Assembly: GCA_903857685.1 (NCBI GenBank) | Contig: CAIOFO010000090.1 | Coordinates: 1-40,717, forward strand | Direction: 5' to 3' | Origin: an uncultured Alphaproteobacteria bacterium | GTDB taxonomy: Bacteria > Pseudomonadota > Alphaproteobacteria > Micropepsales > Micropepsaceae | DNA: 40,717 nucleotides | Shown here: one piece after another, positions 38,637 to 40,717 of the stretch | Position numbering within the stretch: the stretch's first letter is position 1 | How the letters are laid out: every line of letters starts with the position of its first letter | Translations under genes and position numbers: made by a program | The notes under the pieces: model-generated | Told to the model about the DNA's origin: nothing | The model's input: only the letters and a program-made list of their open reading frames with translations | The model's database searches: none

Positions 38637-39561
38637 TTAGCGTGTACCTGCCATCTGGGCGACTTCGTCGGCGAAATCGCTTTCGACCTTCTCGATGCCC
38701 TCGCCCACCTGGAAGCGGACAAAGCCTTCGACCGCGATCGGTGCGCCGAGGTCCTTGGACGCCTTTTCAATCACCTTGCCGACCTGGGTTTCGCCGTCGA
38801 TCACGAAGGTCTGGGACAAAAGCACCGTCTCTTCGTAGAATTTGCGCATCCGCCCTTCCATCATCTTTTCGATCACGGCGTCGGGCTTGCCCGACTGGCG
38901 GGCGATTTCGGTCTGCACCGCGCGCTCGCGGTCCACGACGTCCTTGCTCAGATGTTCGGGGGAGATCGCCAGCGGAGACGCGGCGGCGACATGCATGGCG
39001 ATCTGCTTGGCCAGGGCGGCCAGCTTGTCCTTGTCGGCAGTGGATTTCAGGGCCACCAGCACGCCGATCTTGCCCAGCTCGGGCGAGGCGGCGTTATGAA
39101 CATAGGCCGCCACGGCGCCGGGACTGACCGCCAGCGCGATGGTGCGGCGGACCGACATGTTCTCGCCGATCTTGGCGACCATCTCGGTCAGGGTCTGCTG
39201 CACGGTCGAGGCGCCGAGCCCCGCGGCCAGCAGCTTTTCCAGGTCGCCGCCCTCTGTCAGGGCGATGCCGGCGGCGCTTTTGACAAAGCTCTTGAATTCC
39301 TCGTTGCGGGCGACGAAATCGGTTTCGGCATTCACCTCGACCAGGGCCCCCGGCATTGCCCGAGACGGCAACGCCCACCAGGCCTTCGGCGGCAACGCGG
39401 CCGGCCTTCTTGCCCGCCTTGGAAATGCCTTTCTTGCGCAGCCAGTCGATCGCCGCTTCCATGTCGCCGCCGGTTTCGGTCAGCGCGTTCTTGCAGTCCA
39501 TCATGCCCGCGCCGGTCTTGTCGCGCAGGTCTTTCACCAAGGCGGCGGTGATGTTGGTCAT
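38637..39561 (-). pseudogene. tsf: Elongation factor Ts, frame disrupted by one extra base
   Basis: EF-Ts (about 307 residues if intact) exchanges GDP for GTP on EF-Tu. The N-terminal part ([22 protein letters not shown]..., UBA-like domain) is in one frame, and the rest ([18 protein letters not shown] to the end) is in another. The break is at a run of five G on the coding strand (C at 39347-39351): with four G the frame reads [13 protein letters not shown] without a gap. GGAGA lies six bases before the ATG. As EF-Ts is essential or nearly so, a sequence or assembly error is the likeliest cause; a true mutation or slippage cannot be excluded. Everything else in the gene looks normal. Confidence 0.9.
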
Positions 39562-39586
39562 GCTGGTCTCCACAGTTGAAGGTTCC

Positions 39587-39624: not shown

Positions 39625-40401
39625 TTAAGCGGTGGCTTCGGCCGGTTCGGCGTGGGACGAGGTATCCTCGATCTCCACCGCCGCGCCGATATCCACGCCC
39701 GCCTCGACTTGGTTCTGGCCCAGGCCGTCAATGATGGCGCGGGCCGCCAGGTCACAATAAAGCGCCAAGGCGCGGGCCGCGTCGTCATTGCCCGGAATCG
39801 GATAGGCGATGCCGTCGGGATCGCAGTTGGAATCCAGGATCGCGGTCACCGGGATGCCCAGCTTCTTGGCCTCGGCGATGGCGATGGCTTCCTTGTTGGT
39901 GTCGATCACGAACAGCATGTTGGGCAAGCCGCCCATTTCCTTGATGCCGCCCAGCGAGCGTTCCAGCTTGTCCTGTTCGCGCAGCAGGCCCAGCAGTTCC
40001 TTCTTGGTCAGGCCCGACTGTTCGGCGGTGGTCAGGGTTTCCTCGATGGTGCGCAGGCGCTTGATCGAATGGCTGATGGTCTGCCAGTTGGTCAGGGTGC
40101 CGCCCAGCCAGCGATGATTGACGTAATATTGGGCGCAGCGCTTGGCGGCCGCGGCGATCGGCTCGGACGCCTGGCGCTTGGTGCCGACAAACAGGATGCG
40201 TCCGCCGCCGGCCGCGACTTCGCGCAAGGCGACCAGCGCCTGGTGCAGCAGCGGCACGGTCTGGGTGAGGTCGAGAATGTGGATGTCGTTGCGCGTGCCG
40301 TAGATGTAGGACGCCATTTTCGGATTCCAGCGCTGGGTGCGATGGCCGAAATGGGCGCCCGATTCGAGCAGCTGGCGCATGGAAAATTCTGGCAAAGCCA
40401 T
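39625..40401 (-). CDS. rpsB: 30S ribosomal protein S2
   Basis: A 258-residue ribosomal protein of the small subunit. Family segments are [20 protein letters not shown] at the start, [27 protein letters not shown] and [15 protein letters not shown]. The C-terminal tail is acidic/Ala-rich. GGAG lies about ten bases before the ATG. A longer in-frame frame starting at 40539 lies in the leader and promoter. It is the first gene of the long minus-strand cluster. Confidence 0.97.
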
Positions 40402-40430
40402 GGATTCAGTCTCCTTTACCGGTTGGCCAG

Positions 40431-40502
40431 ACGCATGGGTTACCCCTTTTGGGAGGCACCGGACGGGGACGGCAGAACACCTGTCGAAACCCACCCATGC
40501 GT
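40431..40502 (-). promoter_or_regulatory. Structured rpsB leader RNA (candidate autoregulatory element)
   Basis: The leader can form a perfect 10-bp stem: ACGCATGGGT (40502-40493) pairs with ACCCATGCGT (40440-40431), enclosing 52 bases that contain a smaller hairpin (CTCCC-AAAA-GGGG type, around 40441-40455). It lies between the predicted start of transcription and the rpsB SD. In other bacteria rpsB leaders are bound by S2 for feedback control; that this leader does so is inference. Confidence 0.55.
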
Positions 40503-40515
40503 GCGAGATGCCGGG

Positions 40516-40544
40516 CTTATACGGACTGATACCCCCCAAATCAA
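40516..40544 (-). promoter_or_regulatory. Predicted rpsB promoter (-35 TTGATT, -10 TATAAG)
   Basis: On the minus strand TTGATT (40544-40539) and TATAAG (40521-40516) are exactly 17 bases apart. Transcription would start near 40509, giving a leader of about 108 bases that begins just before the 10-bp stem. This should drive rpsB-tsf and perhaps much of the downstream cluster. Confidence 0.7.
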
Positions 40545-40614
40545 GGGTGAAAGCGGGGCCGCCCTGCAGGTTTAGCGCCTGTTGCCAAGGACTTAGCGAT
40601 GGTATGAGAAACCC

Positions 40615-40717
40615 ATGACCGCAAAAAGCCCCATCCGGCCGCAGATTCAGGCCCTGGAACTGTCCGGCATCATGAAGATCGCCGCCCTGGGACTGGGCAA
40701 CCCCGACGTGCTGCCCC
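40615..40717 (+). CDS. Aminotransferase class I/II (5' end only)
   Basis: The first 34 codons of a gene running off the right edge, beginning [19 protein letters not shown] and continuing [14 protein letters not shown]. This matches the start of fold-type I PLP-dependent aminotransferases common in Alphaproteobacteria, but the lysine and cofactor site lie outside the window. The gene is divergent from rpsB. The substrate cannot be judged. Confidence 0.6.

Follow-up and report, generated by a model that had tools for sequence, protein, structure and literature searches.

The question raised by this locus is what kind of element occupies the leader between a promoter and the rpsB gene in the window, i.e., the whole stretch of DNA that was analyzed (40,717 nucleotides). 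The promoter, the two arms of a stem, the Shine-Dalgarno (SD) sequence, and rpsB were all located on the minus strand. The rpsB gene (39625..40401) encodes ribosomal protein uS2 of 258 aa, which matched TIGR01011 with 319.5 bits (cut-off 76.3) and PF00318 with an E-value of 5.6e-92, and its ATG start codon was situated at 40401-40399. The nearest named relative of this uS2 among the records searched was that of Rhizobiales bacterium dw_265 (90% identity). The gene 3' of rpsB was tsf, identified by a profile match, followed by two frames that we take, by sequence recognition, to be pyrH-like and frr-like. The tsf gene (EF-Ts) was split over two frames in the window (38637-39573, minus strand), one frame covering positions 1-72 of TIGR00116 and the other positions 70-291; of 13 same-genus loci inspected, 11 had an intact frame across the junction, and the other two (L013 and L015) did not match the search expression. 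As tsf is regarded as essential, the split more likely reflects an error of sequencing or assembly than a true disruption of the gene. A divergent frame on the plus strand started at 40615 and ran off the window (40615-40716), and its 34 residues had no match in NCBIfam (E ≤ 0.001) or Pfam (E ≤ 0.1).

The rpsB gene was searched in 61 genomes (the window's own, others of the same genus, and others of the same class) and was matched in 54; the seven genomes with no rpsB match comprised six of the genus and one other. The rpsB-bearing genomes that were kept included 31 of the 37 genomes of the genus, the window's own among them, and 23 others, and the 31 genus leaders were aligned from the -10 element to the ATG. 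The well-spaced promoter reported in the initial annotation held up in this comparison. Its -35 hexamer TTGATT (40544-40539) and -10 hexamer TATAAG (40521-40516) were separated by a 17-base spacer, and TTG opened the best-scoring -35 hexamer in 30 of the 31 genus leaders, mostly 17 bases 5' of the -10. The mean -35 match in these leaders was 3.5 of six positions, as compared with 2.2 in shuffles, and the commonest form was CTTGC rather than TTGAC, whereas the conservation of the -10 is partly circular because the genus leaders were trimmed at a -10 match. A stock promoter scan reported no promoter for the window leader because it requires a T at position 6 of the -10. Judging from the promoter spacing, transcription probably starts near 40509. 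The SD sequence AAAGGAG (40417-40411) was invariant at all seven columns in the 31 genus leaders.

An open frame without a stop extended from rpsB through the leader (39625-40716; 363 codons in the window and 259 to 414 codons across the 31 genus matches), and the leader might on this account be read as coding for an N-terminal extension of uS2. This is scarcely credible, since the genus leaders differed by indels that were not in threes, an SD and an ATG were present at 40417-40399, and seven leaders contained an in-frame stop two codons before the ATG (L027, L028, L032, L039, L043, L044, and L045). A coding leader was rejected on this evidence, and the open frame is probably due to chance in GC-rich DNA.

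The 10-bp perfect stem that had been proposed from the sequence, with arms 52 bases apart and ahead of the SD, was present as described between the promoter and the SD of rpsB. Its 5' arm, ACGCATGGGT, was located at 40502-40493 and its 3' arm, ACCCATGCGT, at 40440-40431; this stem is hereafter called P1. The P2 hairpin (40465..40492; loop GTGTT) consisted of an outer helix, GGG/CCC (40492-40490 with 40467-40465), and an inner helix, CGACAG/CTGCCG (40486-40481 with 40475-40470), which contained one A-C mismatch in the window. A short P3 hairpin with the core CCC AAAA GGG was located at 40443..40454. When the 143-base stretch was shuffled 1000 times with its dinucleotides preserved, nine of the shuffled sequences contained an inverted repeat of at least 10 perfect pairs (loop 10-100). 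Elsewhere in the 40.7-kb window, seven sites carried perfect 10-mer inverted repeats with loops of 20-100 (a total of 12 hits, several of which overlap). Furthermore, the folding energy of the leader was ordinary (z -0.15; 87 of 200 shuffles were as good). Taken alone, the single leader sequence suggests a real stem with only moderate persuasiveness; given chance repeats and an ordinary folding energy it is not convincing, and the comparison between leaders decides.

The 24 pairs tested on the 31 genus leaders were those that form P1, P2, and the pseudoknot in the window. Standard pairs were present in 95.8% of cells, which are not independent events because the leaders are related, and both-side changes were observed at 15 of the 24 pairs. 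Covariation of the whole structure was 0.414, as compared with 0.173 ± 0.011 after shuffling (none of 500 shuffles was as high), and fell to 0.108 or less once partners were slid by 1-3 columns; shuffles were as high as the observed value in 10 of 500 cases for one of the five measures, the number of further pair types. In P1, the alignment of related leaders that had been put forward as a check revealed both-side changes at eight of the 10 pairs, with 93.8% of cells paired, and the tenth pair (U29-A82 of the leader) was not conserved, being unpaired in 14 of the 31 leaders. Both-side changes were found at all six pairs of the inner helix of P2 (95.2% of cells paired) and at one of the three pairs of its outer helix (96.7%). 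An unguided RNAalifold consensus recovered nine P1 pairs and most of P2; it also placed three additional pairs 5' of the presumed transcription start, outside P1, and added a two-pair hairpin between the ACCGG strand and the SD, the tool being incapable of writing pseudoknots. P1 is thus a real stem.

An inverted repeat of 10 perfect pairs a short way 3' of a promoter could also be a DNA element, such as a site for a transcription factor, rather than an RNA stem. The chance of this is remote, because the two arms change together across genomes (both sides at eight of 10 pairs) and hold no fixed site sequence, G-U pairs occurred at six of the 10 P1 positions, and the repeat belongs to a larger conserved RNA with several stems. 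The DNA-binding site was rejected on the evidence of covariation.

The length of P3 varied across the 31 genus leaders, and this part of the alignment was too loose for a covariation test. A GC-rich repeat, about AGCGTCSGCNNNAGCSGVAGCGACC, was observed in the P3 region of six of the 31 leaders (L015, L019, L027, L029, L032, and L033). Exact copies (1-10 per genome) were found in 14 of 25 genus genomes and in none of 16 other class genomes, with a control reading of 0, although the pattern was derived from the leaders and the counts lean towards them. Sites included G000:C15:32399, C91:36166, and C151:43836, and five tandem copies in 33-base steps were located at L132:724-880. This looks like a genus-specific interspersed repeat that is tolerated in P3.

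The initial annotation recognized P1 as its stem and overlooked a pseudoknot between CCGGT in J2-3 (40462-40458) and ACCGG (40423-40419; positions -22 to -18 from the ATG), which lies four bases 5' of the GGAG of the SD. CCGGU/ACCGG was present in all 31 genus leaders, and this lack of any variation means that covariation lends the pseudoknot no support inside the genus. Leaders from elsewhere in the class were therefore informative. The non-genus set (n = 94) consisted of 75 named records and 19 unnamed class genomes, the latter being 19 of the 23 non-genus genome leaders (G038, G052, G054, and G060 were left out), and the former remaining from 80 named loci after removal of two without a leader (L056 and L097) and of L051-L053, which duplicate L032, L041, and L011. 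ACCGG preceded the SD in 76 of these 94 leaders, and 74 of the 76 also contained CCGGU; of the other two, L030 has CTGGT (one G-U) and L057 offers TTCCGG/CCGGAA.

The 3' strand was altered in the other 18 of the 94 leaders, in which the strand was placed from its flanks, and the J2-3 place of the 5' word was judged, by eye. Eight of them contained an exactly complementary J2-3 word (L003, L042, L050, L074, L083, L087, L094, and L114), the exact compensatory types being CUGGU/ACCAG, CCGAU/AUCGG, UCGGU/ACCGA, and UCAGU/ACUGA. Seven others, from Brevundimonas, Caulobacter, and Asticcacaulis records, had UUCCGA/UCGGAA (L064, L075, L080, L085, L089, L100, and L101), and in the last three (L008, L010, and L026) the strands paired with one G-U. 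By chance, exact complements of the individual changed words turned up in 1-12% of other non-genus leaders, and UUCCGA in two of 76 other leaders. The number of independent events is smaller than the number of leaders, as L074, L087, and L094 share one type and so do the seven UUCCGA leaders. These compensatory variants elsewhere in the class support the predicted pseudoknot.

The rpsB motif, described by Meyer et al. in 2009 from most Alphaproteobacteria, is located before rpsB and comprises a long P1 that joins P2 and P3 in a three-stem junction, plus a pseudoknot formed by J2-3 and a strand 3' of P1 (PMC2704228); its Rfam entry is RF01815. The window leader is likewise a 5' leader of rpsB with a long P1, P2 in the junction, and a pseudoknot of about five pairs (CCGGU/ACCGG); P3 is present in the window sequence, with variable length and a loose alignment. 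RF01815 matched the whole element over the full model (40505-40407, minus strand; model 1-132) with 21.9 bits and an E-value of 0.012, and the stretches UCCGGU and AACCGGUAA...AGGAGA of the window were placed on those of the model, so that the pseudoknot strands and the SD were aligned. This score does not reach the gathering score of 40, a cut-off that is an annotation rule and not a structural definition. RF01815 went unlisted when 10.7 kb were scanned with Rfam and appeared when the scan was limited to 181 bases, presumably owing to the dependence of filters and E-values on scan length.

RF01815 was matched at E ≤ 0.1 in 92 of 142 class genomes, 36 of them with a match above the gathering score and 56, likewise, with none above it; no match was found at this threshold in the three genus genomes among the 142 drawn. 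In a locus scan that covered 17 of the 31 genus loci, five were matched at E ≤ 1 (22.6-28.3 bits), none above the cut-off, and the window's own locus (L001) was not matched at this threshold. The genome search recovered RF01815 at the rpsB leader of at least two of 23 genus genomes (four of the 23 had no rpsB match), a lower bound because its first look loses matches: G012 and G011 had no genome-search match, and their loci scored 28.3 bits (L037) and 25.9 bits (L039), respectively, in the locus scan.

A model, R1, was built from the 31 genus leaders only, and its overlap with RF01815 therefore ties the genus form to that family. R1 matched 35 of the 142 class genomes, i.e., the three of the genus and 32 others, and in 29 of these 32 the R1 match overlapped an RF01815 match when the lists were compared by eye. 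The three R1 matches with no RF01815 counterpart were in G059, G057, and G088; the one in G057 was located directly before rpsB, and the one in G059 (on contig 1, with rpsB on contig 140) is probably due to chance. At E ≤ 0.01, R1 matched 44 of 92 sources, a part of the loci collected that included the duplicate L053, and 48 had no match. The 44 were the window and 43 other loci, all directly 5' of rpsB, and 42 of the 43 lay outside the genus, since L053 duplicates L011. Covariation in the alignment of these 44 matches, which was fitted to the model, was 0.571 as compared with 0.179 (none of 500 shuffles was as high), and in 20 of 500 shuffles as many pairs changed on both sides as in the alignment itself. 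R1 is not a universal model, having missed seven of the 10 leaders tested besides the window at E ≤ 10 (L010, L074, L083, L075, L114, L008, and E. coli).

These comparisons of sequence and predicted structure place the window leader in the known rpsB motif, RF01815, as a divergent member. The earlier view that a ribosomal-protein leader precedes rpsB was thus upheld by covariation, position, and the full-length RF01815 match. Its proposal of autoregulation by S2 accords with the precedent of E. coli. Its supposition that the form was not yet catalogued found no support in the main sense, as the motif was published in 2009 (PMC2704228) and is held as RF01815; it applies only narrowly, in that none of the 17 genus loci reached the gathering score and that a GGAGG/GGCGG element was absent from the genus.

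The leader is very probably a divergent RF01815 leader of the rpsB-tsf mRNA, and most likely an operator for autorepression by uS2, with uS2 binding as a predicted step. Transcription would start a few bases 5' of P1, and the RNA would fold into P1, from the top of which P2 and P3 branch at a junction, with the J2-3 strand CCGGU pairing with the ACCGG directly 5' of the SD to form the pseudoknot. Surplus uS2 (helped by bS1 in E. coli) would bind and stabilize this P1-pseudoknot fold, the 30S subunit could then not load at the adjoining SD, and the translation of rpsB, and of tsf with it, would fall. The 30S footprint is expected to reach positions -22 to -18, either at its edge or inside it; the 3' strand of the pseudoknot would thus lie at the edge of or inside the footprint, and pseudoknot formation would hinder initiation. 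A multi-stem leader directly 3' of a promoter might also act as a transcription attenuator with alternative terminator and antiterminator forms. However, a scan of both strands of 40380-40717 revealed no terminator-like site and no T-run followed P1, P2, or P3, which favors translational control and makes an attenuator very unlikely; it was rejected on this evidence. Translational repression would resemble that in E. coli, where uS2, with the help of bS1, represses rpsB-tsf translation via the 5' UTR (PMC10931766).

The genus leaders differed from other leaders of the motif beside P1. GGAGG or GGCGG followed P1 in 62 of the 94 non-genus leaders, 13 others had another GNGG and 19 had neither, whereas neither GGAGG nor GGCGG was found in the 31 genus leaders, all of which had a CUGG-, UAGG-, CAGG-, or UUGG-type sequence at this place. 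Furthermore, 30 of the 31 contained an extra pair at the foot of P1 (A-U, G-U, or G-C), and the like column was unpaired in 36 of 39 cases in the alignment of the 44 R1 matches. The low RF01815 score probably owes much to the missing GGAGG/GGCGG and the extra foot pair. No description of the genus version of the leader was found in the open-access literature. The leader is ordinary as a kind, and what is new is confined to the absence of the GGAGG element from a single genus.

One possible, though doubtful, reading of this loss is that the uS2 operator was rebuilt in the genus: the GGAGG/GGCGG side of an internal loop at the foot of P1 would be gone and partly replaced by ordinary pairing, and P1, P2, and the pseudoknot would stay. 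If this were true, and if the loop is a protein contact elsewhere, uS2 (or uS2 with bS1) must recognize the RNA differently, and the rebuilt operator would constitute a natural test of what the operator requires. It is improbable that the remodeling beside P1 left a structured RNA of the rpsB family whose regulator in the genus is not uS2, or whose regulation was lost. The distribution of GGAGG/GGCGG (0 of 31 genus leaders vs. 62 of 94 non-genus leaders, plus 13 with another GNGG) would agree with such a change, and so would the statement of a review that E. coli can lose S2 control through a small deletion in a conserved bulge distant from the ribosome-binding site (PMC10931766), a bulge that may or may not correspond to the GGAGG element. 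However, the fold is kept in the genus, where covariation is seen in P1 and P2 and the pseudoknot does not vary, and GGAGG/GGCGG is also missing from 32 of the 94 non-genus leaders, including the 19 without any GNGG.

Autorepression by uS2 is retained as the most likely function. According to a review, the mechanism of uS2 autoregulation is still unclear (PMC10931766), and a lineage without the GGAGG element offers a ready natural variant for testing it. In addition, 31 leaders of one genus confirm the fold of a published ribosomal-protein leader, class-wide support is added for the pseudoknot of the rpsB motif, and the curated cut-off of Rfam was found to leave out the genus in the loci scanned.

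Compared with the rpsB motif, the window leader has the same site before rpsB, long P1, P2/P3 junction, five-pair pseudoknot, and occurrence in Alphaproteobacteria, and it differs in its score (21.9 bits against the gathering score of 40) and in the remodeling beside P1. Compared with the 5' UTR of E. coli rpsB (t44/tff, RF00127), the gammaproteobacterial form, it shares the position before rpsB and a closing stem, whereas the E. coli leader contains GUGGAGG after the stem. The t44/RF00127 model, against which the leader of E. coli itself scores 83.5 bits, had no match in the window leader at E ≤ 10, nor did R1 match the E. coli leader at this threshold. At the place of the pseudoknot, the E. 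coli leader (L131) contains a five-pair complementarity of its own, GGGGU/ACCCC.
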